Positions 6,392 through 45,700 of a DNA stretch of 64,000 bases are shown here, one piece after another. The stretch is from Hypomesus transpacificus (taxonomy: Eukaryota; Chordata; Actinopteri; Osmeriformes; Osmeridae): contig NC_061063.1 in the NCBI RefSeq assembly GCF_021917145.1, positions 6,639,944 to 6,703,943 of the forward strand, written 5' to 3'. A program made the translations under genes and the position numbers. The notes beneath the pieces were generated by a model. The model was not told the DNA's origin and searched no databases. It saw only the letters and a list, made by a program, of their open reading frames with translations. The number at the start of each line of letters is the position of its first letter. The stretch's first letter is position 1.

Positions 6392-9300
6392 ATGCCGAAG
6401 AAATCGAAAGAAGAGGCAGAATGGGAAGGAGACGAGGTGGCACCAGCGGCAGGTAATGCAGCATACCCCTACTAGCCAGCTGCTAGTCCTATTAGCAACG
6501 ATGCTAAGCTACAATTGTGCCTGCTGGCTAACTGCATACTGTGTCAGGAATGTATTTGCTACAGTTAACGTTGGTCACTTGTTTCACTGTTGCCACATAC
6601 TTTAATCTCAGTTAATTGAGCATGCCCCACTTATGTAGGAACAACTTAACAGTTTACTTTGACTAATAAAGTTATCTGGCCATCTGAAAGTGACGGATGC
6701 TAGATATTAGCTATCAGTAACAGTTAGCTGTATCGAATGATGTAATGCCAATGTAATAGAGCACTACATCGTTTTAAACTACTAACTCAATCAATGCACA
6801 TGGTGCGTATATAAACTACCATTGCAATATTGTTTTGCGTCTAGATGACAACTGCCAAAAATTCTTGTCGTCAGTGTTAATCTTTGTCTAAGAATTGTCT
6901 GTCATCGTAGCTAACCAGTGTCAGTGTGTTGACTGGTCCAGACTAGGTAGTCTTGCTCGCAAGCTAGCTAAATGTTTTGTTCAGCTTGCTGGAACGGATT
7001 GCTGTGTTGTCAAAATGCCCCTTGTTGCGCCCGCTCGAGTCATGTGGTTTCTGTCTTTGTCATTTCAATATGTTGAGAAAGACAGTTTGTTTTGTCTGCA
7101 ATGTATTACATAAACAAATGAATTTACCTATCACTTCTTAGCAGAAAAATCGGTAAAGAAAGGAAAAAAAGACAAGAAGGGGAAAAAGAGTGTAAGTTTA
7201 TGTTTAAGCTAAATTTCTTTTCCATTAATTATCTATGAATAAATGATGTTTCAGCATTAAATCCTAATGTATGAAGGTAGTCATGCTCAGGTACATATCA
7301 TCCACTTTCACAGTTCTTTGAGGAGCTTGCTACAGACAACACAGCTGAGAAAGAGGAGGAAACTGCCATGAAGGAGGCACAGGGAAAGCAGGTATCTGTA
7401 CTCTGAGTGACACTATGAGGCGACCTATGATGTATAGTGACTGTTACTTTGTATCATTCGCATCAATGTGGCCTTTAGATGTAAAGTTGCAACTTGATTT
7501 TGAATTAAGGAATGTTTTCAAACTTGATGTAGGCCTACCTGTTAAATTGTTTCTTTCTTTAAGCCCCAGAAAAAAAAGAAAGACCGGCGGAAAGGAAGAG
7601 GTGGAGACGGAGATGAGGATGATGAGGAGATCATGGAGCGACTTAAAAAGCTGTCCGTGCAGCCCAGTGATGATGAAGAGGAGGAAGAAGAAGACCAAAG
7701 TAGGTTGATGCGTGTCTACTGGTCAGAGAAACACATCAGCTGTGTGTATCCTTTAAGAGAATAGAAGGGAGCGTTTGCTACACACTACTTAGTTCATTTA
7801 TATGGATGTAAATGAAATGGAATGTACTGGGTTTGGTTTCTCATCAAGTTTTATTCCCACAGTTGTGGCCCCCATGAAAGGAGGCAAGAAAAATAAGGCA
7901 AGTGTTTCATACAAATGTATGCTTTGATCTATAAATATAATTAACATTGGCTAGATATACTTTGTTTCTCCAAGGTTGCTGTGGTTAAGTATGGTGGTTC
8001 TCTTTCAGGGTGGGAACATCTTTGCTGCTCTTAGTCAGAGTCACAGTGATGAGGATGGTGATGCAGGAGGGGATGATGAAGATGATGCACCAGTGAAAAA
8101 GGTGTGTAGTTAACTCTCCATCTCTATACTTGTATCCAGAAAGAAACACTTAACTATTTTACTCACACAGTTTTTCTAAAATAGATGTTTTGTTAGTTTC
8201 TCTCTGTGTCTACTGTTTGAGATAAATTGGAGATTGTTAAATGTTTAGTGCTAAGAATGATACTGTTAGTGATGCAATAGGATGTAAGCCCTTGAATGAT
8301 ACTAACCTCATTTCAAAGTCTTGTGTCGTGTGTTTGTGCCTCACAATCTAATCTAATCCATCGTCTTCTACTTCTCCACTCCTGTCTTCAATCTGGCATC
8401 TGGCCAATTCTTCAAATCCTCTCTGTCTGACCAATAACCATTTCACTACTATATACACTCCATATCAGTTAGTTCTCTGTGTTTTTCATCCTGGAATTTC
8501 ATCTGTCCCTGTGTATGTGTCTGTATATGTTGGAGTTTAGACAATTACATTCTTCACTTTCAGAAAGTCACAAGGCAAGTTTTCATGAAAACAAATTGGT
8601 ATTTGTGTCTGGTCATCTTTAATACAGGAGGTTGAGAAGGTGCTTAAGGGCAAGAAAAAAGATAAACCTAAACCCAAGAAGGTCAAGGTGGGTGCCGGAA
8701 TGTGTTACTGCTTTTATTATCTTGACCTCTACCATCACTGCAGCACTCTAAATCACCCCCCTCCCTCCACCTGTCTGCTTTCACTCATTCTTTCTTGCTA
8801 AAAGGTGTCTAATCACGAAGGGAAGGGAAATTACAAAAACACTTTTTATATTCTTTCTTTGCCGCCTTTTTAACATGTCACACTGACCAACCCTCTGACT
8901 TTTCTCCATGTTGAAATGTACAGCTCATCTGCTTGCTGCTGTAACCCCACCTCATGCTACGAGCCTGCGTTCTGTCCTTCCAAAATTGTGTTTCTCACAT
9001 GTACTTATTTCCTGAAACGGGAGCAGCCTCCGTCTGATGACGAGGAAGAGGCTGAAAAGAAAGACGAGCATGAGAAGACGGCTTTGAAGAACAAGAAGAC
9101 GGAAGCCAAGGCACCAGCGAAGGTGAGACAGGTGACTCTGACGGTTTCTCTCTGGACTGATGAGGACCAGTGATAAAAATAAAGACTCACCTCTGTGTCT
9201 CTGCAGGCACCTGAGGAAGATGAGAAGGAGGATAAGCCCCAGCCAAAGAAAGGCAAGAAAGAACAGCCAAAGGTAATTTAAGATGGATCAAACTTTATTG

Positions 9301-12300
9301 AGGTAATTGGTGACAAAAAAAAAGTGGAAAAGGTTTTCTTGGAGAGTGTGTTCTGGAATACTTTGTGGTCTTGCAGGGTGTGTGCTGCACTCATCAGGCT
9401 TTGACTTAATGGTGTCATACTGTTATTTTAATTGTACATTGCCAATCTAGAAAGGTAAACCCAATCGTCCACCACCCAGTGACGATGATGATGAAGATGA
9501 GGAGGAGAACAGCGACGGAGAGGACACAATGATGGTAACTATAGGGGAGGGTATAGCTCAGTGGTTAGAGCACTTGACTGCAAATAAAGGAGGTGTCAGG
9601 TTAAAATCGGTTATAAACATCGCTTTAGATACAATTGTCTGCTAAATTAACACAGTTTTGTACATATTCTTATTTGAATTCTGGTTTTCTGTACTAACTA
9701 TGGAATATCAGCATCACAAAGGTTTGATGGTTCAATCCCTCAGTCAATTTCTTCATTTCTCCCTCAACTACCAGTGTGCTGAGGATGTCATTGCAGAGCA
9801 GGCTAAGGGAAAGGATGACGATGACCCCTTCGCAAACCTCAGCAAAAAGGAGAAAAAGAAGAAGAAGAAAATGGTAATCTGTCAGACTAAACCCACCATG
9901 CGAATGACAGTAGAAAAAAAAGAGAGAAATGACCTCTGACCTTGCTCGTGTGTTTGACTGCAGATGGAGTACGAGAGGCAGGTGGCGAGCGTGCGCGCTC
10001 AGAACGCCATCGAGGGGGACTTCTCTGTGTCCCAGGCTGAGATGTCGTCCAGGCAGGCCATGCTGGAGAACGCCTCAGACATTAAGGTGAGGACTCCTAA
10101 GTCCTGCTTCCTTTTCATTCCTGACGAAAGTACATATATGTCTTGGCTGTGTAATTCCATGCACTTGTTTTCCCTTAGCTGGAGAGGTTTAGCATATCCG
10201 CCCATGGAAAGGAGCTCTTTGTCAACGCCGACCTGTTGATTGTTGCGGGGCGTCGATATGGTTTGGTTGGGCCAAACGGGTAAGCAGTCATTCTTTATAG
10301 GTTTGTTTATTCCTTTTAAAAATTGAAGCGTCAATAGGATACGGCGAACACTAATGTTGTTATTTACTTCCTTTTTCAGCAAAGGGAAGACCACCTTGCT
10401 GAAACATATCGCTAACAGAGCCCTCAGTATTCCTCCCAACATTGACGTGCTGCTGTGTGAACAAGGTAAACAACCTGCCCCCTTAAAAAGGCATATTTAT
10501 GCCCCTCACTCACTCCCACGCTCACCCTCTTGTCTGTGTGCGCTGTGTATCCACAGAGGTGATCGCTGACGACACTCCGGCCGTGCAGGCGGTGCTGAAG
10601 GCCGACACCAAGCGCCTGAAGCTGTTGGAGGAGGAGAAGCAGCTGCAGGCCCTGCTAGATAAGGGGGAGGACAGCGTGGGGGAGAGGCTGGAGAAGGTGA
10701 GGGGAACCCCACTCCGACAGGGGATGTAAAGTAGAGCTTTGGTGGGCAGCATACGACTCATGGTAATATTAAAATGGTGGATGCGCTTCACAGTGCTTTA
10801 CCTCTGCCGTAAGAGGTTCTTGTCTGACTTTGGGAGTAGCACAGATAAAGCTGCAACTGCGTGGTTTGGATCTCCTAGGTGTACGAGGAGTTGAGGATTA
10901 TTGGTGCTGCTGCAGCAGAGGCCAAAGCCCGTCGAATTCTGGCTGGACTGTCTTTCACCACTGAGATGCAGAACAGAGCCACAAAGAAATTCTCCGGAGG
11001 CTGGAGAATGAGAGTCTCTCTAGCCAGGTAACAACAGCATCACCTGTTTGCTATCCAAGCATCGATTTACATCGTATCTGGGGACTCACTTTGTTTTAGG
11101 TACCAAGTGCTATCTACAACTGAGTAACAAGTAGCTATGCTTTAGGGAAATTTACACAACCTACCAAGTTTGTCTTGTTTTATTGTGCCTGTCCTTTTCC
11201 CAGGGCTTTGTTCATGGAGCCAACCCTGTTGATGCTGGACGAGCCCACCAACCACCTGGATCTGAACGCCGTCATCTGGCTTAACAAGTACGAAGCAATC
11301 AGGCTTTTAACTAGCGATCCGTAGGAAAATAACGAATACAATCAACACAATGCTTTTTTTGGTCCTCTACAGTTACCTTCAAGGCTGGAAGAAGACGCTT
11401 CTCATTGTCTCTCACGACCAGAGTTTCCTTGATGAGGTGTGTACGGACATTGTTCACCTGGACTACCAGAAACTCTTCTACTACAGGGGAAACTATTGTA
11501 AGTAAACAGCCAAGGATATTGGATCAGAGAAACTGTGCCGAGATCTGAGGTAAATAGAGAGGAATTGGTAAGTAGAGCATTAAAAGCCTTGCCTTGCCTG
11601 TCTCCCCCAGTGACCTTCAAGAAGATGTATGTGCAGAAGCAGAAGGAGCTCCAGAAGCAGTACGACAAGCAGGAGAAAAAGCTCAAGGACCTGAAGGCTG
11701 GTGGCAAGTCGACCAAACAGGCTGTGAGTGGAACTTGCTCCTCAGCTGACTATCCCAACCCTCTCATCGGGTTCCTTTATCCCCGCTCACTCATTCTTTC
11801 TATCTCTTTCCTTCCCAGGAGAAGCAGACCAAGGAGGCCCTCACAAGAAAGCAGCAGAAGGGCAAGAAGAAGGGAGGGTTGGAGGAGGAGAGCCAGGAGA
11901 CCCAGGATCTACTGAAGAGGCCCAAAGAGTACACTGTCAAGTTCACCTTCCCCAACCCGCCCCCTCTCTCACCACCCATACTGGGGCTGCACAGTGAGTC
12001 ACCCTGTTCCTCCTGTTCGTCTGTTCCCTCCAATCTTATGGGCCACACATTGCCCATCTGTGCCACTTGCAGACCAGGTTGTCACATTCCTTAACCATGT
12101 GTCTTCTAACTCAGCTGTGGACTTCGGCTATGACGGTCAAAAGCCTCTTTTCAAGAACGTGGACTTTGGTATTGACATGGAGTCTAGGAGTAAGTAGAGC
12201 TTTTCAAATCCTTGAAACGGGAAAAAGGATTCACTTTTGCTCCATATTTCTTCAGTGTCTGATGCACATGGCTTCCTTGTTTAGTTTGCATAGTTGGCCC

Positions 12301-14018: not shown

Positions 14019-15652
14019 CTATTTGAGATAAGCCTTGTAGAGTCTCTTGATTTTAGACAGTTCTTTTTCATCTGGTTCGATTCTGTGGTACCACTTGTAC
14101 CAGGCTTCACCTTTGGCCAAGGCTGAAGGAGTGGAGGTGCATCCCACTGCATCATGGGAGTTGGAGTAATCCTCTCCTGTGAAGTCAACGTAAGGAACCT
14201 GGAAGGGTATCAACCCTAGAAGACAAACCATATTCAAGTTTCAAGAGGACTGATTGAGTGTCACGACAAGCACTGACAGGTTGCCCTTCAAGGACATGCA
14301 TGCAAGGAAGACAAATGGATGCTGAAATAGATTCAACTTTGAATAGATTTAGAAACAGCTCACCATGGTCTTGTGCTGTGTTGATTGCTATTTGTAGCTG
14401 CTTCTGCTGTTTCATGCACACACCTTAGACAGGGAAAATACAATTGTTTACAAGATATCGGTTTTACAGTTAACATTACACAGGAATGTTTTAATATTTT
14501 GTATCTATTTTACTTATATACTTCCTCAGGTAGCTTTATTACCTGTTCGTGTAGGGTCATACACTATACCAGTGTAGGGACTAATAAACTGTTGCAACAA
14601 CTTTACATTCTGCAGGGAGATATTAACAAATGTCAGCCTGTTTGAAGTGAAGTCAAGTAATTACGCAGTAGTCTACATTTAATGACCACAATGTAACGCT
14701 CCATGGTAGCAAATTAATTAAAAGAATGGAGGTAAATGTCAACTGTCTGGAACATATTGTGTTATGAGTGGAGCCTTATTGGACCTGGTAATGGATGATG
14801 ACGTTGGGATCTCGACAGATTGGGCAGGCATTGCCACATATCTTGCTTCCTCTCTGAAAACAACAAAAAAGCTTTGTGTTGACAAGTGCCATACAAACAA
14901 GAAGTCTTTCTATGATGAATCACATTGGTCTACATCCAATTAGTTTCGTGCTTACAATGCAAGTCTTGCGTGTTTTCTGGGGGGGAATTCCTCCTTTGTG
15001 GTTTCTCCTGTAGTCTGCCCATACGGGACTGCTTCCATAGCGTTCAATGTACTCTGAAAGAAAACAGACTATCAATGGGGACAACCTAGAGCAATGACAC
15101 ATATGTACACCTCAACACCATCAATACTCATACCTTCACTCTCAAGGTAATCCCAGGGTCTGTCCTTGAAGCGGACTTGAGTTTCAGATACATTTAAAGC
15201 ATCGTTATCACCTTCTAGAGATGGTTTAGTGCCCATATAATGGCCTGGCTGCAAAAATGGAGACACTGCCTGAAACCATATCCTGACAGGAAACTTCTGG
15301 AAAATAAGGAAAGCACAGATGAACCACCGGCACAGTTACAACCCTAATCCTTGGACTTGCTGGTAACAATAAACCTACAAACCATCTGCTGCAACGTATG
15401 ATTGCCCAGAGTTAGGCTTGGCTAAAGTGGCTTCAGCTCAAATCTATTTAGCATACACTCTAGCTAACTTGGTCATTATGTACTAACAGCACATCACTTG
15501 CAAAGAAATTTAATGATAAGCAGAGGTTGGTTTTTCCAATAAGTTGCGCTTTGCATACAATCACTAAATACCTTAGAATGCGGACTTTTCAATATAAACA
15601 AGGGAGAAACACGACTAAAAATCCTTCCAATGCCTCGTACGGATGCTGCCAT
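14019..15652 (-). CDS. mrps18b: Mitochondrial ribosomal protein S18B (mS40)
   Basis: Seven exons on the minus strand: 15572-15652, 15134-15296, 14956-15053, 14785-14853, 14543-14609, 14364-14423 and 14019-14215, giving 244 residues. The N-terminus ([20 protein letters not shown]) is basic and free of acidic residues, fitting a mitochondrial import signal. The family core follows: [37 protein letters not shown], then the zinc-binding type CPICRD segment, [14 protein letters not shown] and [14 protein letters not shown]. It is one of the three S18 paralogues of the mitochondrial small subunit. Placement between abcf1 and ppp1r10 matches the human MHC class I framework order and supports the call. 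The donor after exon 4 is CAG-GTCCAA, a poor match to consensus, but the homologous reading HYQ-NVKLL requires it. The start codon sits in a YY1/TISU-like context (AAAATGGCAGC). The C-terminal tail is shorter than in human (258 residues). Confidence 0.93.
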
Positions 15653-16382
15653 TTTGTTTTTCCTGATGTAAATTGAAGGGTCAAAGGTAGAAGTTGGGGG
15701 GGGGGGGGAGTATTTGCTTTTTATTACTAGAATATTATTACGTAGTTAAAAAATTTCATTTTATATTTTTGTTAATGTTTTAAGAACAGTAGGCCTACAT
15801 ACGTTTTAAAGTCGTGATTTTAAGGCTGGTATTAAGGAGGAGTTGAACAAATCTCAATAGTTCGAGACCTTTCCTTCAATGATGTCTTCACAAATTTAAC
15901 GAAACTTTACTCATGTTTATAAACAGGAAATAAATACCCGCTAGTTTGGTTAAATCTAGCAAAATTATATGATAGTACGCTACTAAAGGCGAGGAGACAA
16001 GATAAGGAAACACATCTACACTATTGGAATTTGGCCGTGTTTCGATGCTCAGCGGCCATTTTGTAAAATAAATGCGTAGTCATTTATATCAAAAATACAG
16101 ATTATGAACTTTTACAACCCCATTATTGTATCGTCTGAAAGGACAAATCGTTGAACTGTTATAGCATGCGTGACTAAAATCGAACTTGGTCAAAGGACTA
16201 CACCAATAACGTTCACCAAGCCAATTCTCTGTCCTTGAGTTAACAATGAAGGTCATTCCACAAAAGCGCGTGACAGAAAACGCCATTTTGTCACCATAAG
16301 TACGACGCGTTTGACGTCAAAAACGTCAGGAGTATATAAATAAATCCCACCCCCTTTCTGTCATTCCTGGATTTGTTCTGAG
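15646..16382. promoter_or_regulatory. Divergent mrps18b / ppp1r10 promoter with CRE, TATA and YY1-like sites
   Basis: The ppp1r10 side has a perfect CRE (TGACGTCA, 16312-16319), a second half site ACGTCA at 16323 and a TATA-like TATATAAATA at 16333. A splice donor GTGAGTAA follows at 16383, suggesting a short untranslated first exon ending at 16382. Three GCCATTTTG motifs (YY1-like) lie at about 15648, 16053 and 16282, the first overlapping the mrps18b initiator codon on the other strand. Function is inferred from motifs only. Confidence 0.6.
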
Positions 16383-19300
16383 GTGAGTAACGTCGTAAAG
16401 AAGACGTGGCAATTTTAAACAAAAATACTACGCAATAATACATATTTTCATGCTGTACATTTTGACACATCAGCAAAAATTAAGGTTTGACCGACGACGG
16501 AAAAAAAACGATTTGGGGATTTATTTTAAATGGCTTTCGTTGTCTCTTTCAGGTCTGACTTTGTCTCGAAGATTGGGCGTCGAGGACTTTGAACAACCTA
16601 ACTCAAAAATCATTTTTTTCTTCAAGTAATGGACATTTGATTACTATTTTTGCCTCCAGTTTGTTGAAGAAGGAAAAGATAGCTTTTAACTTCCACTACC
16701 CCGCCCATAAAAGCAGTTTTTCAGCCATTAAGTTTGTTATAAAACCATGACGGTTAACGTTATAAAACTGATGAAATAAGGAATAGATGTTGCTGTAAAG
16801 CACAATATAATAAGTACCCGAGACGCTGAGGAGAGGTATTTATAGTAAGTGTTTATTTTCAAACGAATTTGATCCGAAATTCATGAAATCAAGCTTAAAG
16901 AAAGGAATCTGGCTAGCCTCCGTAACGAGGCTTAGCAGCATATAGCTAGCAACATCAGACGAACGCTACGTCAACGGTAGCTAAGCTAGTTTATGAGCTC
17001 ACACAGGAAAGTCTACGGAGCCAAAACGGTCCGTTTCTTTGTGTGTGAGACTTATTTTACGGAAATATATTAACGATGAAATTTTCAGTCAGCTGAGTCG
17101 TAAATTAACCATAAGCAATCTATTCATAAAGATTGCCGTAGGCACAGCCAGGGATATTTTTTATTTGGATTTTTGCCTGCTAAATTGATGCATCTAGGGG
17201 AGCTCCTTGGAACAAACACCCAACGCAATCTATACATAAAGATTGCTTAGTTTGAGGATGTCGGATTTATGTTGTACAGGAAAATGGGTCCTTTTGTAAA
17301 TTAGTCATAATTTGAAATTCTGTGCTTTGATACCGACCTACCTCTTATTGTTGTCGATATTGTTAGCTAGCACTTTGTCCATGTGCCCGATATTTGTACA
17401 TGGCAATCTGAGGATAAAGATTGCAGGATTGAAATGCTCAGGGGAAATATTCTTCCTAGGGCCAGAACACGTTTGGCTGGAATTGCATTGCAACAACATG
17501 GTGGACTGGTTGTCGTTTTGTCCAAAGAGAACACTAGGGACTATTATGGCTTCATCGTGCTTCGGAAAGACGGTTGGGAGTGAAACCCAGGATGTTTATC
17601 CAACAACTGCTTTGCAGTTTAGTCCATTTACTTCCGTTTGTTTCTAGTGTTAGTTTCGGCTGGAGATTTTGGTATATGTGTCCTCATGAAGTGCCTTAAC
17701 TAGTTACTCTGGTGTCAGAGCCATTGTTCTTTTGCTATCCGTGGCTACAACGAAGTGGTTAACAAAAGAGGGCAGGGCTTCGATATTTTCGGTGGATCAC
17801 GGGGTTCTCCCCCTCTAATACACACTCCCCTCGAGCTCATTGAAGCAGCGTAACAGCGAATATGGCAGATGTCCTTTTACCGTATGTTTTACAAAGAATG
17901 TTGAAATCTTGCGCAACTAATATTGGTTTTGGCCATATGCCAGGCGATTTAAACACGGGAGTAGTAAGACAACCATTGACTTATTTACTTTTATGTTTAA
18001 CTTATTTACATATTAAATTAGTTTAATCAAGAACAATGTAAGTTCACTAAACCGTCAAAGATAATTTAGGATGGTGATACACTACAAAAATAAGCAAACG
18101 TGTACTTTAAATAACAATGCTTTTTAATTTAAAACCCATCTCACTAACAGAATTAAAAATAATAATAATAACCCTAGAGAGATGTTTCTTTGTATAGATA
18201 AAAACTGGGTGGGATACTTAACCCTACCTTTCCATTGACATGTAAAAATATGAACACTCACTATGACATTCCGTTCCATGAACTTGCAATTAGGATCATG
18301 TCTAACAATTCTGTATTGGTTTTGTCTACTTGTGTAACAGTGGCATTTGCAGGAGTTGTGTGTTGTTATCCCGTGTTGTGGAGTTCTGAGACTATATAAA
18401 ACTTCTACTACAACAGTTTAACGGGTAAGACCAAACTGATTTCTCACATGATACTTCAATTTATACATACAGATCCATTACATGGGGAGAATAATTCCAA
18501 GCTCCTGGTAATGTATTCAGAGCTTGTGTTGCCATAACAAGCAATTAAAAATAGTCTAAAATGAACATCTAGGGATTGAATAATAAATGCATGCAGTCCT
18601 CACCCCACCCAGTGTCAGATAGGCCCATAGATGGAGGGGAGAGGTTTGCTGACAGGATGAACACAAATTCCAAACAGGCAGATTGATGTTGTAATGGACC
18701 CATGTTCTAATAGTTGCCCAACCATGCATATTAAATAGTTTTGAAGTGATCTCAAAATACTTTCTTAATTTACTGCAGGCTGATATATTGGTTTACAATT
18801 TTCCAGCAGTATTTTATTTCTTTGCATTGAATATGTGCTACAGCACATCGGCTAGTATATTATTTTGTGGTTATCATTTGTGGTATTTTTTTTTCACCGA
18901 AATGAAACTCAACGACTAGTGAAGGCATCCATTTCAGTACATTTACTGCCTACCAAAATGAATAAAATACTGTAGTGTCTTAAGAAGAATAATTATTTGA
19001 TCAATTTTGTTATCTAATATTTATACATAAACGTTTATTGTATTCAACTGCTTAACCCTAACCAAGGTGATGACATGGTTGTAAATCTGTATATTTTGTT
19101 AGATAACATTGGATTACAATTACCAATAGAGCTTGTAATACCATATTTTACCATGTGATGGCACCATATGCCCAAATCTGCTTTTTACTGTAGACATGTT
19201 TCTTAATCCCAATGTAGTGTCTTTGTGAGACGTAACATTTTAGGGTAATATAATTTGCAACGTGTAGCTATTATATGTATATTTACCAACATTTTAATAT

Positions 19301-20459
19301 AATTTGTCACCTATGTTTGTGTATCTGAGAAAATGCTACAGACATGTTTACCAAATTTAACTTTGTGTCTTAAATATCCAACATGGAATCTTACCTTTTT
19401 GGGGGCAGTTAATCATTATTCTTGAGTTAAGAAAGCTTTTGATTGGCCAGTCAATGTTTATAAAATGTTTTAAGGGAAGGTTTTGGAAATGAATTACATT
19501 ATACACAATGGGAAGAAACGATCAATTTATTTCATCTTCACAAGATCTTCCCCATAGAGTGGGCAGTTTCTCAGTTCTCCAAATCTTATTACTAAGCCTT
19601 TGTCATCCTTTTTTCCAGATTTGTTTACGAAGACAAAGAACCACTAATGTTTTTCTTTTGTTTATTAATTTGTAATAGTAAAAAAAAAAAATGAATAAAG
19701 CATAGTGATTTGAATAGTCGACATGAACATATACTGTGCTAGTTCAGTGTTGTCATTGTATGCCATTACCTGCTAAACTGACTCATTTCACATCTACTTC
19801 CTCAATGGTCAAACTTATAACAACAGGAGATTTGTTTGTCCTTCTAACAGTTTTAGTGCAGAACACAGGACTCTGAAAGGAAATTAACTGGACACCGTGT
19901 GTATAGTCTCTGTTTAATACTATATTCCATGGAGAAGAACTGGCAACGCCCTGTCCCGCCCCTCTGTTGTAGTAAAAAAAAAAAACTGTCCAAAAATGTA
20001 TGCAAATGATTGAGTTGTGCGTTAAAACAAGTGAGGCATGAGAAGTTGCCGATTGTGGAGGTTCCCAGTGGAACCTGTGGCTGGTGTCTGGTGTTGTGTG
20101 ACCAGGACTTGATGCAGACCTCTTTGGTCCTTGCAGTGCTGTTCTGAAGCCTCGGGTTGTCAAATATTCAAGTGACTAGGATATTGGATTTCAGTTGGAT
20201 ACCGGAATAGGAAATGTTTCTAGTGTGGTTTGCAGTGCGCACGTTGACCCTGTTCTAGACCGTTCCAGATGAGATCTGGACTGTGTTTGTTCCATGGAGC
20301 TCTCCCTATAGGAAGTTAGACTGACAGGCCCATTAGCATGTTTGTTGAACAAATATTAAGTTTTGCATTTCTAACCTTCCAGATGAACGATAAATCATGT
20401 CCAGGAAATATCCTGCTTGTTTGTATTAAATGTGCTTGTTGGGTGTGTTTGTTTCAGAG
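16383..20459 (+). other. ppp1r10: 5' untranslated and intronic region of ppp1r10
   Basis: About 4 kb separates the likely promoter from the start-codon exon. An acceptor (CTCTTTCAG) before 16553 and a donor (GTAAGT at 16845) may bound a second untranslated exon, 16553-16844. The acceptor just before the ATG is at 20457. The rest is AT-rich intron, apart from three hairpin motifs at 17115-17424 (separate entry). No convincing protein-coding exon is present. Confidence 0.5.
17115..17424 (+). repeat. Three copies of a 22-base hairpin motif upstream of the ppp1r10 start codon
   Basis: Copies at 17115-17136, 17225-17246 and 17403-17424 all read GCAATCT, four variable bases (ATTC, ATAC, GAGG), then ATAAAGATTGC. 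The outer seven bases are perfectly self-complementary, so each can form a 7-bp stem with an 8-base loop ending in ATAA. All are in the same orientation, spaced 110 and 178 bases start to start, with unrelated sequence between. It could be an RNA hairpin or a palindromic DNA-binding site; no known element is recognised. Confidence 0.85.
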
Positions 20460-23400
20460 ATGGCAGTGGGCCCGGTGGACCCCAGAGAGATCCTGAAGGG
20501 CGTGGAGGCGCTTCTGGGGAAGGATGGAGAGCTGCGCAGCCTGGAAGGAGTCCCCAAAGTGTTCAGGTGAGGAGCTGAACATCACTGGAGCCCAGTAACT
20601 GGATCAACTGTTGATAGGTGGTGAAATGGCTGGTTCATTATTGTAATGTCTCACCCATGTTTAACTTGGGACCAAACCTGACAGAATGTTTCACCCGGGA
20701 ATACATTTTAAATTAAACGTTGTTTTGTTTCCCCCCCGTAACAAAATAACTATGTTGAGAATATCATCTTGACAAATATTTCCTGTTTTGTTCCCTTGTT
20801 TGTCCCTTCAGTCTGATGAAAGCCTCACACAAGATGGTCAGCAGGTGTATGTACCTGAACATCTTACTGCAGACCAAATCCCACGACGTGCTCAACAGGT
20901 GAGCTGAACCACTTCTCTTTTGTCAAGTACATTTGATTTATCCCACTAGGGGAAATGTGTTTGTAGACAGGTATTAAAACTACATAAATACTACATAAAC
21001 GGCCTACCTGACACCACACAGAGACAACTACACAAAACAATACAGTACAGTACAAGGATCACTTCATGTTGAAACCCAGAAATAAGTTCCGTCAATGAAT
21101 ACTTGTGCCATTCATTTATGCGAATTTAGCCTCCCAATAGCAAAAACAAACAAAAGACCCCCCAAGTATTTTTGTTCTGTGGGTGGAAACTCTATAGAGA
21201 GAAGAGCAAGAGCTAAACGGGGGGGAAGGGAAGGGGGAGTTTGGAACTATCTGGAACTATCAAGCTCGTCATTCACATTTCCACGAATATCGGTTTCATG
21301 GTTTGTCGCCGGGACAGTTTGTAATGTCTCGTTCTTCCTTGTGTTCAGGTTTATCCGTGTCGGGGGCTACAAGCTGCTCAACGCATGGCTCACCTACGCC
21401 AAGAGCACCACCAACACTCCTCTGCTGCAGCTCATCCTGCTCACCCTGCAGAAGCTGCCCCTCAAGGTGGACCACCTCAAACAGGTAGAGCACAGCCCCA
21501 GCCCCACACACGCTCTCTGCATACAGGCTGGACCTCTTTAGGAGCTAACATCATTCAGTGAACTCTAGTCCTGTTGGATGATGGTTGTGTGGTAGTCCTA
21601 ACTCTCCTGTCTAACCGTCTGGTCTAACCCTCTGGTCTAACCCTCTTGTCTAACCTTCTGGTCTAACTCTCTGGTCTAACCCTCTGGTCTGTTCTATTTT
21701 ACCAGAACAACACAGCTAAGCTGGTGAAGCAACTGAGCAAATCTGGAGAGACAGAGGGTGAGTTTGATGAACTATCACATGCCTGTGGTTATAAAAAAAT
21801 ACTCATTAGCCACAATTACAGGGCGGACCCATTTTTTATGACTTTCATTTGGCGCACGGCCATTTCCTGGTGTTGGTGGTGTGTTTCTAACCATGTCTCT
21901 TCCCCCTCAGAGCTGAGGAAGCTGGCTGCCGTGCTGGTGGAAGGCTGGATGGCCATCATCCGCTCGCAGAGCGTGTCCGCCAGTGGGGTTTCTCCCGCAG
22001 GTACGCCCCCCCCAACCCCTACACACACATTCTGTACACTCTTAACTTACACTTTCCCTGCGTCTATCTTTCCATAACCCCCCCGCCATCTTGACGTTCC
22101 CTCCCCAGATAAGAAACGAAAGAAGGAGGAGGGGAAGGTGCTGACGCGGGACCCAAAGATCGAAGCAGCAAAGGTGGCAGAGGAGGAGAAGAAGAAGGAG
22201 AAGCCCAAGGCTCACGCTCCGAGCCACGCCAAGATCCGCTCCATAGGTAGGTCCTCCTCCACGCTCTCTTTCACAACCGTAACACCTCAATATTTGTATA
22301 CAGGTGTTTTAAACACCTGCTTTCGTGTGTATATTAATTTTTTTTTCTCACAGGACTTGAGATGGACACCCCCACTCCTGTTCCCATCAAGAAGCCCCCC
22401 GTGCCCCTCCAGCTGGGGGACAAGTACAACATCAAGCCCGCTCTTCTCAAGAGACCCAGGTAATGCGATTTTGCGTATTCTTTGCACTTCAGCGCCCCCT
22501 CCTGGCCGCGACACAGTACTGCGTTTCTAGTGGACTTCACTTGTATCCTTCTGACAGGTGTCTTTTTCTCTCCCTCACAGCTCTGGTCCAGGGGATGCCC
22601 CCCCGGTAGAGAAGAAATACAAACCACTCAACATGTCCACCAACTCCACCAAAGAGATCAAAGTCAAGATCATCCCTGCACAACGTGAGTCCCAGTGCCC
22701 CCTAGTGTTTCCCTGTCAGTAGCACTGCTGCATTATTCCTGGTAGCTTCGAAGCTGACCCTCGATGTCCACCTCCACAGCTATCGAGTGCACAGGGTTCC
22801 TGGACGCGCTCAACTCCGCGCCAGTGGTCGGCCACAAGATCAAGAAGAAGAAGCTCAATGCCAAGGCGGTCTCTCCAACGTCCAACAAGGTGAGACCCCC
22901 TGTCGCCTTTGAGACGCCCTGTCATACTCGGAGCCTTTTGTAACATGGACATGTTCAGTTAGACACTGTCTCGTCTCTGTCTCTGTAGCCGAGTCCGTTT
23001 GACGGCAAAGCGTCTTCCTACCCGTCGTCCCAGGGCCGTCCCTCGTCCCCGGACGCCCCTGCCTCCACCTCGCCCCCCAACGAGCCCCAGGAGCTGGAGC
23101 AGCCCGGCACCCCTGTGCCTGCCGACGACCCCGAGGCCGCCGAGAACGGTAAGGAACAGGCTCAAGGACCTCCCCCCCCACCCCCCCTTTGGCCACTTCA
23201 TTTGTGCTCCTACTCCCCCCCCCTTGTATCTCTGCTAAAAGTCTCTCTCCCTCCCTCTCTCTCGGTCTCTCTCTCTCAGGTGACAAGCCCAACGCCCTGG
23301 CAGAGCCCCGGGGCGAGGAGGAGACTCTGACCAAGAAAGGCAAGAAGAAGAAGAGCGTCCGCTGGGCGGAGGAGGAGCAGCTGAAGGAGTACTTCTACTT

Positions 23401-25609
23401 TGACCTGGACGAGACGGAGAGAGGTCAGGGGATGAGTACGCAGTGCATTTGACCATGTTTCTCGTCCAGTAACGGCCACCTCTGAGACGTCTTGAATGTG
23501 ACGTGGCTGCGGCTCATCTAAACATCCCCGTGTCTCCCCTTCTAGTCAACGTCAACAAGGTCAAGGACTTTGGCGAGGCGGCCAAGCGCGAGCTGATGAT
23601 GGACCGCCACACGTTTGAGATGTCCCGCCGGCTCTCCCACGACACCATGGAGGAGAGGGTCCCCTGGACGCCCCCCCGGCCCCTCACCCTCACGGGCTCC
23701 CTGGCCGCCTCGGGGGCCAACAGCAAGGAGAAGCTCACCCAGAGAGATCGGGAGATGGGCATCCTGCAGGAGATCTTCCTCACCAAAGAGAGGTACGTAC
23801 GGGCCTCTCGCCCTGACAGAGGCACATCAAGGCCATTTCCATTCATGGGTTCCTTTGTTTTGGGGGACCTCAGACGGGTTCTGGAATGTGGGCGTGTTCT
23901 GGAATGTGGGCGTGTTCAAGTGGCATCTTCTTATGCCTGGTGTTTGTGTGTCCCCCCCCCCCCCCCCCCCCCCCCCCCCTTGCAGTGTGCCTGACTGCCC
24001 ACATGAGCCGGACCCAGAGGCCTATGAGCCCATGCCTCCACGCCTCATTCCTCTCGACGAGGTAGGTGTCTCCCACACACACACACACACACCCTGCCTT
24101 CACGGTGCACACCTCTCTAACCCCCATCCCGCTCCCCTCTCAGGACTCTACCATGATGGATGACAGCTACCCAGAGCCCATGGACACCACTCCCCAGCCA
24201 GGCCCCGCCGGGGTCCCCATCGAGGGCTCCAAGCTGCCCCCTGTCCTGGCCAACCTCATCAAGTTGGGCACCAGCGGACCCAGCCCCCAGGCAGTGGGCA
24301 CGCCCGGCGGCCCCGTGGTGCCGCCCTCCGTCAACGTCCAGGAGCTCCTGTCCTCCATCATGGTGAGTGGGGAGGGCAGACTGTGTCCAGGCGCTGCGCC
24401 GGGCTCCCTGGGAGCTTCCCCCGACCCTGACGGCTCTTTCTCCCTTCCTCCCCCCCCCCCAGGGCGCCCAGGGCACACAGTCCACCGAGGACCTGATCAA
24501 GCAGCCCGACTTCTCTGACAAGATCAAGCAGCTGCTGGGCTCTCTGCAGCAGACCCAGAACCAGACCCCCCCCATCGGACCCCCCCCCGGAGGTAGCTAC
24601 AGCACCACCTTATACTGAACACACCCCTCCACCCCTCACACAACACCCCTCCACCCCCCACACAACACCCCTCCACCCCCCACACAACACCCCTCCACCC
24701 CCCACACAACACCCCTCCACCCCCCACACAACACCCCTCCACCCCCCACACAACACCCCTCCACCCCCACACAACACCCCTCCACCCCCCACACAACACC
24801 CCTCCACCCCCCACACAACACCCCTCCACCCCCCACACAACACCCCTCCACCCCCCACACAACACCCCTCCACCCCCACACAACACCCTACATGAGATAC
24901 TGGTCGCTCCACCTTTTTGGATTTACCAGCTAACACTGTGTGTGTTCTGTCTCCACAGTGAACCAGGGCTTGCTCGGACACGGCCCAGGCATGAACAACA
25001 TGAACATGGGCAACATGAACATGGGCATGCAGATGCCCATGAACGGAGGCTACCCTCCCAACAAGCCCCCAGGCGCCCCCCCGCACTTTAACCACCCCCC
25101 GCCCCCGCACAACCACGGGCCCCCCTTCAATGCCGGGGGCGGCCCCCGCATGATGGGCCCCCCGCCGGGCCAGGGGCGAGGCGGAGACAACGGCAACTAC
25201 TGGGGAGACGACTCCATGAGGGGCGGGCCCCACCGGGGGGGCGGCGGGGGGGGGCACTTCCACCGTGGCCGAGGCAGGGGAGGGGAGCAGGGGTTTAGAG
25301 GTCGCGGACGAGGGGGTCCTAGAGGAGGCCTCAACAACATGGGAGGTAAGTCACCCCGTGGCTCCAATCACCAGAGCAGTTGACAGATAGCGGTGGAGTT
25401 CCTGGTTCTAACACGCTAACTCTCTGTTCTCCTCCTCAGACATGTCCAAGAGACCTGTGTGTCGCCATTTCATGATGAAGGGTAACTGCCGCTACGAGAG
25501 CAACTGTGCTTTCTACCACCCTGGAGTGAACGGACCCCCGCTGCCCCCCAATCACCCGGCCAACAGTCAGCACAGCCAGCACCCCCCCCACCCTCAACAT
25601 GGACACTAG
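20460..25609 (+). CDS. ppp1r10: Protein phosphatase 1 regulatory subunit 10 (PNUTS)
   Basis: 17 coding exons joined in frame to 820 residues: 20460-20566, 20812-20898, 21349-21484, 21706-21757, 21911-22000, 22109-22246, 22354-22459, 22581-22684, 22780-22889, 22989-23148, 23280-23423, 23546-23792, 23986-24061, 24144-24362, 24463-24592, 24959-25345, 25440-25609. Order: an N-terminal TFIIS-type helical bundle (about 70-150, [14 protein letters not shown]), basic linkers, the PP1-docking RVxF-type motif KSVRWAEE near 388 followed by [11 protein letters not shown], a conserved EAAKRE and RRLSHD block, an RGG/Gly/Pro-rich region (about 680-760), and one CCCH zinc finger ([20 protein letters not shown]) near the C-terminus. 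PNUTS tethers nuclear PP1, with TOX4 and WDR82, to RNA polymerase II and chromatin. The ATG follows the acceptor by two bases (CAG-AG-ATG). The human protein is about 940 residues; the difference lies mainly in the shorter glycine/histidine repeat region. Neighbours mrps18b and abcf1 agree with the human order. Confidence 0.97.
21609..21686. repeat. 13-bp tandem repeat in ppp1r10 intron 3
   Basis: Six imperfect copies of GTCTAACCCTCTG lie just upstream of the exon beginning at 21706, extending its pyrimidine-rich tract. Confidence 0.9.
23952..23979 (+). repeat. Poly-C tract forming a splice-site pyrimidine tract
   Basis: A run of 28 C followed by TTGCAG and the ppp1r10 exon at 23986. The homopolymer is the pyrimidine tract of this acceptor. 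Confidence 0.95.
24620..24889. repeat. 22-bp C-rich minisatellite in a ppp1r10 intron
   Basis: About 12 copies of a 22-base unit built from ACACAACACCCCT and CCACCCCCC, with only one- or two-base variation. It lies between the exons ending at 24592 and starting at 24959. The minus strand is strongly G-rich with GGGGG runs in each unit. Confidence 0.95.
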
Positions 25610-39778: not shown

Positions 39779-42700
39779 TCCCGGAGAGGCAGACAGAGCA
39801 TCACATACCCACTCCAAGTCACAGTAGGGAGGGGAAACAAAAAACGAAGAAAGAGGCAATTATCACACCAGGATGTGATTATTTGGGGAAACCCACCTTT
39901 ATAGAAAAGCATCACAATCTTGCAGAAGGACTTCATGAAGTGGATGTTGTCGTAGCAGTATTCCTGGATCTTCAGCAGCAGGACCAGCTCTGACTGGCCC
40001 TGGGTGCTGAACACAGCCAGCAGAGGGGCATAGTACTACAGAGAGAGAGGGAGAGAGAAGGGGTGAGAGAGGTAGAGGGAGAGAGAGTGGAGGAGAGAGA
40101 GAGGGAGAGAGTGTGAGAGAGAGGACACAGTCATGGGTTATTTAAAAAATCACTATTAAGGACAGTAATACAGTAGACCAGCATTGCCACAGCACTGCAA
40201 TATGTTTGCCAGTTGCTGGAGACACCTAATTTGTGGTCCAGTACAGTTAGGATAGTTGTGGAGGTGGTGTAGCTGTACCTTGAGGTGTTTGAGAGCCTGC
40301 TCGGTGACCAGCTCCTCCTTCTTGTTCCACTCCATAGCGTTCATGAGGCACGTCCACAACAGACCAATCACAGCCTGCTCCTGAAGCTCATTCTTCTTCA
40401 TCTCCTCCTTTACATATACCACCATCTACCACAAGATGGAGAAGACACACAAGATAAAGTGTACACATACAGTACATACACACACTTTTTTTGTTGCAAA
40501 TACCAGAAAAATGTACTGATGTACTGAAACGAAGTGTTTTTTACAGGTAAACTGTTGTACATCTTCAGCCATCTAGAGGAGCTAGATAGCGTCTGTTTCA
40601 CACATACAGTACATAACGCTAATCAAGGGTGCATCACAACCACCCTCCCTGCTGAGAAAGATGTGCTATCTCCACCCTCCCTGCTGAGAGAGACGTGCTA
40701 TTTCCACCCTCCTGCTGAGAGAGACGTGCTATTTCCACCCTCCCTGCTGAGAGAGACGTGCTATTTCCACCCTCCCTGCTGAGAGAGACGTGCTATTTCC
40801 ACCCTCCCTGCTGAGAGAGATGTGCTATCTCCACCCTCCCTGCTGAGAGAGACGTGCTATTTCCACCCTCCCTGCTGAGAGAGACGTGCTATTTCCACCC
40901 TCCCTGCTGAGAGAGACGTGCTATCTCCACCCTCCCTGCTGAGAGAGACGTGCTATTTCCACCCTCCCTGCTGAGAGAGACGTGCTACCTCTCGGATGGG
41001 GCACTCCTGAGACAGGCGCTCTTGCAGCTCTTTCTGAAGCTCCTTGCGGGTTCCCAGGCTTTGCTGCACACGCAGGAAGTCTGATAACTCCTTCAGCCCC
41101 GCTTCGTTGAAGTACACAGAGAAATGCTCCACGTTCTGTTTGTTGACAGGAAACAACTCCTGGAATGATCAGATTGATAATCCACAAACATAACTAGGAG
41201 GAGGTAATTTATAGACAAATGGAAACATTTACAAAATATCGACATTCTAAGTAAATAATGAAATCTGATGTAGTTTTTAAGCTGCAGCTCTGGTATAAAA
41301 ATGACTATGTGGACTTAAGAGGCAATGAGCACGACAACAGACTAACCCTCCCGTATCCTCATCATAATCATAGTGCATGTATGACAACACCTGAAGTCTG
41401 CACCTGACAAGTGAAAACCGTCTCCATGGAGACAGTCTCTCGACACTAACACTCAGGGTGTTCCGGAGAGAATAAAATAACATGTTATGCTTCCTCAATC
41501 CTCACCAGCAGTCTTTTATCGAGGCTGGCCTTTCTCAGGGCAGAAGTAACTGAATTGGCATCTTTCTCGGCTATCCACGCCTTAAACATCTTTACTGCAA
41601 AGGATGCAGAGATGCCTGCAAAGTACAGATCAAATGAGTGTTATATAGCTTATTGCATGTACAACAACACATTTATACACACAAAACTCCACGACCACAC
41701 ACATGCACCTCTTCACACACAAACATTCCCCGTCCACACAGAGAAACAATCACACACCACACACACACACGTACACACCTTCCTTGACAACATTGTCACT
41801 GAAGAGGCTGGTGAGGATAGGGGGGGGCAGTGTTCCGTTAGCCAGGAGGATGCCGGTCAGCATGGCCAGCTTGGTCTGCTCAGACTCACTGAAGGCTTTC
41901 AGGAAGAGCAACAGCTGCAACAGGAAGTGACAAGAGACAGGATGATGAGGTCCCCTGGCAACAACTGATGAGGTGAGAAAGATGACATCATGGCATTTTA
42001 CCTTTTTGATCTCCTCTTCAAAGCCCTTCTCTAGGTATTTGTATCTCCTGATGAGCTTATTAAAAACCTAAGAGGGAGAGAGAGAGAGACAGAGAGAGAG
42101 AGAATAATGGTAAATCCTGGAGGATGTGGACAGGGTGAATTATATGTACCCCCCCCCCCCCCCTTGTATTGGTATAATCCATGGCCTTAAAGTCTAAGTG
42201 CCAATATGGAGCACGTCATGTGTATAAATGGGGGGGGAGGGGTTGCTGAAACATACCTGAGCATAGCGTTTGAGGGCAGAATGATTTTCTTCGATAGTGA
42301 ACACACAGTGTGCCGTCACCTTGGTCTTGTCACCCTCATCGATGCGCGTCCCTCCGGGAGCTGAGTCAGGGAAAGCAGGGTCAAAGGTCAAAGACTTCAA
42401 TTCTGTTGAACCTTTGATTCCACAGCTCAGAATATCCCACTATACTAGATATCCACAAGTCACAACAATGGGCAGGGCCTCAAACTGATATTGAATACAT
42501 GCATTCAGACACAACAATGATAAAACCATGCTCTACTATCTCATCTAATTATGCCAACAACACCCTTTTGAAACTATTTTTGGTCGATTCTAAATGATGG
42601 TTAACTGGGTTGCACTGGCTAGGATCCCTGTGTAACCACAATAGACTAAGGGCTTAGTGGGGATGTTTCTGCCCTTGGCCCAATCACTGCTTGATGTACG

Positions 42701-45700
42701 GTAATCAGTCTTTAATGAGATTACACAACTTTACTGCAATGCCTAACAGCCCCATCCAATTCTGTTGGGAAACTCCCTGACTAATGTCTGATCCCAATAA
42801 CTTAAATGACTCCCCTCTCCTCTCCCCTCCTCCTTGATCTCCCCTCCCCTCTTCTCTCTTCTGGCTATATATACATTAATACAGCATTGATCTGGTTGTT
42901 GTGTCCTGCGACTTTTCATGCTGCCAATGACATTTAATCTCTTCCTGTAGATTAATGACAACAGGAGAATATACAAACCTGCTGCCTGCCTGCCTGCCTG
43001 CCAGGGAGAATACCTCTCCATTGTTGACCTGTTGTCCTGTCAGTTTTGGACAGGCTTATAGTCCTGTTAAAAGGACTTGAATTTAAACATAATACCCTGT
43101 GTGATGTTATTGTGTTATAATCAGATCACATCTGATGCGCAAACTCCATTGTCTTAATCAATCTACGCACTCATTGTCAGAGTAACAGGATTCAAGAGGC
43201 TGGGTTCTTTTGTGTCCACAGCTTGTAGTACTGTGCCCCTTATACAGAGCGGGAGTAAACCTTTTAGCTCTAATTGGTTTGACAGAGAGTGCTTCATTCT
43301 AGATTCAGACCTGGAAGTACAATAAACTAATTTGAGACAGATTAAAGGGACAGGATGGAAATGAGTGTGTGTATTGTGGGTTCATGTGTGTTAATGTCCT
43401 CTAGGTGTGTTCGGTGCATGCAAGCGTGAGTGTGTGTGTGATGTGTGGTCCTGTGTGAGCGTGTGTGCATATGTATTTCTGGGTTTATGTGTGTTAATGT
43501 AATTGCCCATGTGTATGTGTGTGTGTGTTGGGCAGTGACAGCATGTGTGGATCAAGGTATATAAACAAAAAAAGAGTGGAAAGCCAGACTGATTAAGAAC
43601 ATCTAGCAGCTTAGGCCTACAGGTCATTGAAGTTCAAAAGCTTACAGCGTACCGACACACTGAGCTTAGCTACAAACATAATACCTTGTGCAATGCCTCA
43701 AACTCCACTACGTTTCCCACAATTACTGTTCTGTACTGCCCTTGTACCCTGATGTTATAATATATTTGATTATTAAAGCCCAGCGCCTTCTCCAATGTTC
43801 AGGCATGTACATGGGAAATACAATAAAATGTGGAAAACTTAAAGAGTCAAATGAATTGTCAAAGTTTGGAAAACGTTGTTCTGGTGACCTTCAAGGAGCC
43901 ACACAGATTTCTGAGCCTTACACGGACAGAAGCAGACACTCTCCAAGAGAGAGTGTCTGTAATGGGTGATGAGGAGAGGATCTCTTTGATCATGGGGCAT
44001 TACTGTGTTAATCTGACAAAGCCAGCAGTGATCACTTTGTCCTTGCCTGGGCGAGCGAGCACAGCCCTGCACCCAGCTGGTCACTCGTCCACTGTTGCCG
44101 ACGGCACACGCTCCTCTCTTTGTCGCCTAGCTACATGGATCCTGGGGGCTTGCTGTTTAATTGTAACTTGTCTAACTACATGCTCTTATTGTTCTTCCCT
44201 TTGGGACTTACTTGGTTTCACAATGTATGCTTCATGTTTGGCTACCCGCAATGTTTGGGGCTATCTCGTTGTTATGATTAGTGACCTATGGACTTTTGTA
44301 AAACTCTGTCTTGGAAGTCGCTTTTGATAAAAGCGTCTGCTAAATGCATAAATGTAATGTACTGTAATGTGGGGTAGGGTTTTATAATGTGATGTTATGC
44401 TAATCTAACACCCTTTAAATGTGTCTAATAACCATCTTGGGGGAATACCACATGACAACAATATTGGTTTGAATCTATTCATGATCGCAACAGATTACAT
44501 TTCCCTCTGTGAAAGGTTTCCTAATGCATCCCAGACACCCAGAACACACTCACCGAGCATGCTCCCTGTGATGAGGATGTCAAAGAGGGTGTCGGCATAG
44601 CGACGGTAATCGAGTCGTGAGCCCGTGACATCAAGGAACTTGGCCAAAGCGTCTAGGTCCCCTCCTGCTTCGTTGAGGCCCAGAACGATCGTGTCTCGGA
44701 AAACTGTGGGCTCAAACTTCTCCTTTTCATCTGGGAGGGAAGACAGAGGGAGAGGGTTAGGGCGGGGATGTCTACTAACATCTGCTGTTCATAGGTGTTG
44801 TCATTCGTAACACAGTTGAGTTGAGTGAGGTCAACTGTAAGCCAGTGTGTGGATGATGTCTATTCTCAGTGTGTGGATGATGTCTATCCTCAGTGTGTGG
44901 TTGATGTCTATCCTCAGTGTGTGGATGATGTCTATTCTCAGTGTGTGGATGATGTCTATCCTCAGTGTGTGGATGATGTCTATCCTCAGTGTGTGGATGA
45001 TGTCTATTCTCAGGGTGTGGATGATGTCTATTCTCAGTGTGTGGATGATGTCTATCCTCAGTGTGTGGATGATGTCTATCCTCAGTGTGTGGATGATGTC
45101 TATTCTCAGGGTGTGGATGATGTCTATTCTCAGTGTGTGGATGATGTCTATTCTCAGGGTGTTTGCCAGCAGGGATTAAAGCTAAGAATTAGTTCTTAGA
45201 ATGCGTGTGTTCTGAATGTGTATTTTTCTAATCTGTATTTTTAAAATTGTATATTGTTTTTATTATGTGCTATTGTAGAAAGGCCCATCCAGGGACGGGA
45301 GTTGAAAATTAGCTTTTGCTATAATCTCTATGTGCATCACATCAGCTGCAAACTTTGCTCTGTAGCTATGTTTAACTGCATTGTCCCTGTCAAATAAACT
45401 AATAAATAAAGTAGCTGATCACACAGACACACAGAGCCAGGTATGGGACGTGTAACTTCTGACCTGAGAAGACCTAACTCCTGGGCAGGGATTGATTTGG
45501 GGCTGCCCTGCTTAATCCTGTCTGTGTCTTCACAAACATCTAAATATCATAACTTAGAGGTGGCCACACTGGGAGTGGGGCAGTTTGGACATGCTACAAA
45601 TATGTCAATAACTTGAGCCAGTCAGCAACCTAGGCAGCCAACCAACCAACCAGTTGGTCAACAAACCATCCTCCCAGCCAGATAACCAACTAGCCAGCCC

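Follow-up and report, generated by a model that had tools for sequence, protein, structure and literature searches.

Three copies of a 22-base palindrome at the ppp1r10 locus of Hypomesus transpacificus look like a gene-specific control element

INTRODUCTION

METTL16 reads a set of nearly identical hairpins that lie in the 3' UTR of one gene, MAT2A, and share a conserved loop. In a homotypic transcription-factor cluster, sites of fixed sequence recur close to a promoter, separated by unrelated DNA, and spaced short palindromes in unrelated DNA also occur in the subterminal regions of some DNA transposons. PCF11, a termination factor, limits its own expression via a conserved poly(A) site in intron 1, in human cells and in zebrafish (PMC6458999). 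PNUTS, the product of PPP1R10, binds RNA directly and acts in termination, and PNUTS-PP1 slows RNA polymerase II past poly(A) sites, promoting termination (PMC9718767). PNUTS combines a zinc finger with RNA-binding repeats of the RGG type (PMC12278311). A study of C3H fingers, that of PPP1R10 included, names RNA binding as their chief role (PMC12275196), and an RNA Bind-n-Seq accession for PPP1R10, ENCSR297UTH, is listed in PMC11269977.

Here we describe three 22-base sites upstream of the ppp1r10 coding region of Hypomesus transpacificus, within a stretch of 64,000 nucleotides (the window; NC_061063.1, positions 6,639,944 to 6,703,943 of the forward strand). They look like a ppp1r10-specific control element with a putative mechanism. 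The likeness to MAT2A is one of form, namely, repeated regulatory hairpins in a single gene, whereas loop, sequence, and position (the 3' UTR in MAT2A) differ. The likeness to PCF11 is one of setting, both being vertebrate genes for a termination factor that carry a regulatory element in intron 1, in ppp1r10 as a candidate with a putative placement. PCF11 relies on tandem AATAAA poly(A) signals, whereas ppp1r10 has a triplicate hairpin or palindrome, and feedback is demonstrated for PCF11 but only surmised for ppp1r10. The element is compared with the MAT2A hairpins and PCF11 intron 1 by analogy, not as a member of either system. The recurrence of a fixed site beside a likely promoter, in otherwise unrelated DNA, also recalls a homotypic cluster; the sites of such a cluster are expected at other genes, whereas no further locus with the ppp1r10 site was found in this genome. 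A short element in three copies, confined to one gene, would offer a clean handle for mutating ppp1r10 control, and a motif with one genomic address is a useful case of gene-specific versus shared regulatory grammar.

THREE COPIES OF ONE PALINDROME

The pattern GCAATCT-N4-ATAAAGATTGC has three matches in the window, all on the plus strand (Table 1), and 18 of 22 columns are invariant, both arms being identical in every copy. This confirms the coordinates and the degree of identity given in a preliminary description of the locus. A search of the window at up to three mismatches gave five rows, two of them the opposite-strand reading of copies 1 and 2, against an expectation of 0.07 matches and a maximum of one in 100 shuffles. 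Among the 7-bp perfect hairpins of the window, low-complexity A/T arms aside, GCAATCT is the sole arm with three hairpins. A covariance model of the three copies, run unfiltered over 15000-21000, gave 14 rows, comprising the three copies on each strand at E ≤ 0.006 and eight others at E ≥ 1.6, with no fourth copy in that region. No fourth copy was found in the whole window with this model, the best other row being 6959-6989 on the minus strand (E 0.27).

Table 1. Coordinates of the three copies and of promoter and gene features in the window
Feature	Position	Strand	Details
CRE-like pair	16312..16328	+	TGACGTCA at 16312, ACGTCA at 16323
TATA box	16333..16339	+	TATATAA
Putative tiny first exon	16363..16382	+	ends GAG/GTGAGT, donor score 7.6 (simple matrix)
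Putative intron 1 enclosing the three sites	16383..20457	+	acceptor TTTCAG/AG-ATG read by eye
Copy 1	17115..17136	+	GCAATCT-ATTC-ATAA-AGATTGC; 7-bp arms, 8-nt loop
Copy 2	17225..17246	+	GCAATCT-ATAC-ATAA-AGATTGC
Copy 3	17403..17424	+	GCAATCT-GAGG-ATAA-AGATTGC
ppp1r10 start codon	20460..20462	+	sequence read; gene identity by PPP1R10 chain matches, E 2e-37

The variable columns form a single contiguous 4-base block (p = 0.0026) that lies wholly inside the loop (p = 0.0096), both probabilities being conditional on four of the 22 columns varying. The four bases of this block had been described as varying freely. Variation is indeed confined to them, but the sample is three copies: a single base of the four separates copy 1 from copy 2, and copy 3 matches neither of them at any. 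In all three copies ATAA stands toward the same end of the palindrome, which makes the site asymmetric.

How did three copies come to lie within 310 bases of one another? Their similarity stops exactly at the palindrome ends, and the 60-base left and right flanks are no more similar than random pieces of 16401-20400 (6 of 6 comparisons, p 0.45 to 0.97). A tandem duplication carrying its flanks is rejected on this ground, in agreement with the initial view that the intervening DNA is unrelated. A 22-base segment without function might instead have been copied locally by templated insertion, with copies young enough to stay alike. We consider this unlikely. The tight spacing of the copies and their absence from the rest of the genome would suit such an origin, and with three copies any constraint is read from few substitutions; against it stand the sharp boundary at the palindrome ends with flanks that share nothing, the gathering of all differences in one contiguous block, and the palindrome itself, since a perfect 7-bp palindrome would be an improbable random donor.

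UNIQUENESS OF THE MOTIF IN THE GENOME

A genome scan with the pattern had been proposed in the preliminary description as a check for a common transposon. In this genome (437,198,280 bases, 376 contigs), the exact pattern has three matches, all at the ppp1r10 locus, compared to none for the reversed control and about 0.02 (0.023) expected from base composition. At up to two mismatches, at least 18 rows were obtained, 4 of them at the ppp1r10 locus and at least 14 elsewhere, against at least 13 in the reversed control. The arms with spacers of 3 to 13 bases occur at 14 places, each on both strands, and at 4 places in the reversed control; composition predicts about 1.9 per spacing, or ~20 over all spacings from 3 to 13. 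A spacer of 8 is found only in the three ppp1r10 copies, the 11 places elsewhere having spacers of 4, 5, 6, 7, 9, 12, and 13. One near-match with a single mismatch (L004 on C2) has a broken arm pair and was discarded; about one such match is expected by chance, as estimated from the 0.023 above.

Exact uniqueness, near-matches at control level, and the lack of any other spacer of 8 argue strongly against a transposon and also against a widely used transcription-factor site in this genome. No transposon family is visible to which the element belongs, and no general use of the palindrome is seen in this genome; the scan gave no sign of a common transposon. A dispersed repeat is disfavored for the same reasons. 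The sites might be relics of a mobile element, for instance transposase-binding subterminal repeats, since the subterminal palindromes of some DNA transposons have a similar layout, but this appears very improbable given that 437 Mb contain no other exact copy and that the near-matches stay at control level; these counts concern elements that carry the motif.

These counts also bear on the possibility that the sites act as double-stranded DNA. The three copies would then be a homotypic cluster of the inverted repeat GCAATCT-N8-AGATTGC, bound by a dimeric or multi-finger factor, and would enhance or silence ppp1r10 from close to the promoter. We regard this as a serious possibility, though short of probable. 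Further targets are expected of a factor of this kind, but neither the exact site, nor the arms at a spacer of 8, nor near-matches clearly above control level were found elsewhere, and the constant side of ATAA is at odds with a symmetric site. To our knowledge, no transcription-factor motif gives a convincing match to it.

Beyond this genome, viral contigs gave 0 matches to the motif and a plasmid collection gave no match. Prokaryote genomes gave 21 stretches with one match apiece, which are taken as chance. No vertebrate ppp1r10 contamination was found among the collected genome contigs.

At a spacer of 5, the arms occur as GCAATCTCACTCAGATTGC (or in reverse complement) at C9:17861697, C23:14538665, and C26:1716827, and this trio is possibly a small repeat family.

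THE PPP1R10 GENE AND ITS PROMOTER

Judged from its translated exons, the gene downstream of the sites is ppp1r10, the product of which is PNUTS: peptides from these exons match PPP1R10 in four Protein Data Bank sequences (E 2e-37 to 1e-36). Near its 3' end, the ppp1r10 of the window encodes a C3H finger. The copies do lie upstream of the start codon, as first described, but at a distance of 3.0 to 3.3 kb.

The TATA box and the hexamer pair that we take, from general knowledge, to be a CRE suggest that transcription of ppp1r10 starts at about 16363, so that the sites would lie about 0.75 to 1.06 kb downstream. Of the earlier claim that all three lie downstream of the likely TATA/CRE promoter in one orientation, the orientation holds, and the spacing agrees with the start suggested by these two signals. 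AT-rich DNA with a high CpG observed/expected ratio, containing the CRE-like pair and the TATA box, precedes the putative start. The ratio is 0.74 to 1.51 over 15501-17250 at a GC content of merely 0.32 to 0.40; copies 1 and 2 are inside this stretch, and copy 3 is just past it. In endothelial cells in which Na,K-ATPase was inhibited for 1 h, human PPP1R10 rises 1.2- to 1.3-fold beside FOS and EGR1 (PMC7662270), as would fit an early-response promoter.

Are the sites in an intron or in the 5' leader? GAG/GTGAGT at 16382 is the top-scoring donor within 16300-20460, and the acceptor TTTCAG/AG-ATG, two bases before the ATG, scores below 4 in a simple matrix. Alternative acceptors are found at 16553 (score 7.5) and 19619 (score 8.1). 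After the acceptor at 16553 there is no donor above 3 before 18037, and the interval 16363-17500 contains 17 ATGs. The simplest model drawn from these splice signals is a tiny first exon followed by a 4-kb intron, which probably places the three sites in intron 1; with the acceptor at 16553, they could belong to a 5' UTR exon rich in upstream ATGs. Under both models the sites would be transcribed. The single orientation downstream of the putative start suits an element that acts in RNA, although three copies share one orientation with a chance of 1 in 4 anyway. A promoter-proximal position beside the TATA box and CRE-like pair, in or near the low-GC stretch of high CpG ratio, suits DNA sites.

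A minus-strand frame at 14185-14424 gives a weak match to mitochondrial ribosomal protein S18b (E 0.005 to 0.008, over a 26-residue part), with Ribosomal_S18 slightly under the Pfam cut-off, and for a frame at 10327-10569 the match is to ABCF1 (E 2e-11). Over 14185-16363, mrps18b (minus) and ppp1r10 (plus) are seemingly arranged head to head, with abcf1 farther upstream; the three are neighbors in the human MHC region too.

FOLDING OF THE COPIES AS RNA

Taken alone as RNA, the 22-mers fold into hairpins of 7 bp with an 8-nt loop, with minimum free energies of -7.0, -7.0, and -8.0 kcal/mol and z scores against shuffles of -4.9, -5.6, and -4.2 (copies 1, 2, and 3). With 10-nt flanks, the z scores are -3.5, -3.8, and -2.4, and copy 3 is equaled by 6 of 200 shuffles. 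As a whole, the 371-nt region 17080-17450 has unremarkable stability (z -1.5), equaled by 8 of 100 shuffles. In this longer fold, the probability of the copy's own hairpin is 0.89 for copy 2, 0.32 for copy 1, and 0.10 for copy 3, whereas copy 1 pairs with copy 3 at a probability of 0.57. In the minimum-energy structure, copies 1 and 3 pair via their arms and four further bases, around the hairpin of copy 2. The 371-nt fold weakens the case for three separate hairpins and adds pairing between copies, which leaves the balance of RNA against DNA as it was. Since all arms are identical, any 5' arm is able to pair with any later 3' arm, and what the fold predicts for copies 1 and 3 may act as a switch or be a mere by-product.

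The copies offer no covariation to read: both arms are identical across the three, and no pair varies. Arms fixed in sequence and not in pairing alone favor a DNA site, and such identity exceeds what pairing within a hairpin would require of an RNA element. If exchangeable partners were required, however, this would also explain the absence of covariation. With arms that never co-vary, an element in nascent RNA has only a small lead in likelihood over a palindromic site in DNA. Selection for a stem-loop or a palindromic protein site, as initially proposed, remains the best reading, and the invariant arms do not choose between its RNA and DNA forms.

A CANDIDATE ELEMENT IN NASCENT RNA

We tentatively prefer to see the three sites as a triplicate, gene-specific cis-regulatory element of ppp1r10 that acts in the nascent transcript. 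Three exact copies at one locus in 437 Mb with arms at a spacer of 8 nowhere else, one orientation, the folding of the isolated 22-mers, and variation limited to four contiguous loop columns are all consistent with it, as are the RNA binding of PNUTS, its role in termination, its RGG repeats and C3H finger, and the precedent of self-limitation in PCF11 intron 1 (PMC6458999). On the other side, the stems are short, the 371-nt region is unremarkable in stability, and copies 1 and 3 favor each other. A poly(A) mechanism like that of PCF11 is not visible, as the plus strand has no AATAAA in 16339-18582. The copies read CATAAA, CATAAA, and GATAAA; these poly(A)-signal variants are noted but not favored.

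In the element as we picture it, triplication would serve avidity, and the site of action would be intron 1 or the 5' leader. Each copy would fold as a 7-bp hairpin with a NNNNAUAA loop or pair with another copy, and identical arms, pairing within or between copies, would let the element switch partners. An RNA-binding factor would recognize the arms and AUAA, and its binding would alter the yield of full-length ppp1r10 by attenuation, premature termination, or an effect on first-intron splicing.

Which factor might read such an element? Because the site occurs at no other locus, feedback by PNUTS, the gene's own product, is the most economical candidate: a single genomic address suits one-gene feedback better than a shared factor. 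The candidate RNA target for PPP1R10 binding would be AUAAAGAUU or the hairpin. The complete scheme, in which PNUTS-PP1 itself reads a triplicate intronic element found only in ppp1r10 and a termination factor would thereby attenuate its own expression in a self-limiting loop, by means of a dedicated RNA code in place of a poly(A) signal, seems to us quite unlikely. PRR3 has a zinc finger similar to the one in PPP1R10, with AUAA as a possible target. AUAA recognition by analogy with this finger was dropped, however, as CCGGGC is given as a possible PRR3 target, which speaks against it (PMC11026479).

A known RNA family was also considered and rejected: Rfam 15 gave 0 families at the gathering threshold in the window and four sub-threshold matches in 17050-17500 (E 1.7 to 8.2). 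The literature searched, to which most subscription journals do not belong, yielded no description of the element, no preference of PNUTS for its sequence, and no answer on whether PNUTS controls its own gene, in the portions of text available. Those portions give no account of the element in PMC7941889, PMC7662270, PMC7086158, PMC11269977, PMC11026479, PMC7410833, PMC12990809, PMC12275196, PMC9718767, PMC6458999, and PMC12278311. PPP1R10 does not occur in the available part of PMC7941889, nor do PPP1R10 and PRR3 in that of PMC12990809, nor PPP1R10, PRR3, and AUAA in that of PMC7410833. Within this range, the initial statement that no element of this form has been described still stands.

OTHER FEATURES OF THE WINDOW

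No tRNA genes were found in the window. Three minisatellites are present. The one at 24621-24888 (22-bp unit, 12.3 copies, 98% match) lies within ppp1r10, apparently between coding exons as judged by eye. The one at 40640-40987 is clean, with a 32-bp unit repeated 10.9 times. The third, at 44843-45162, is also clean (24 bp, 13.3 times) and spans four stop-to-stop frames of at least 90 amino acids, two per strand, as a unit length divisible by three allows.
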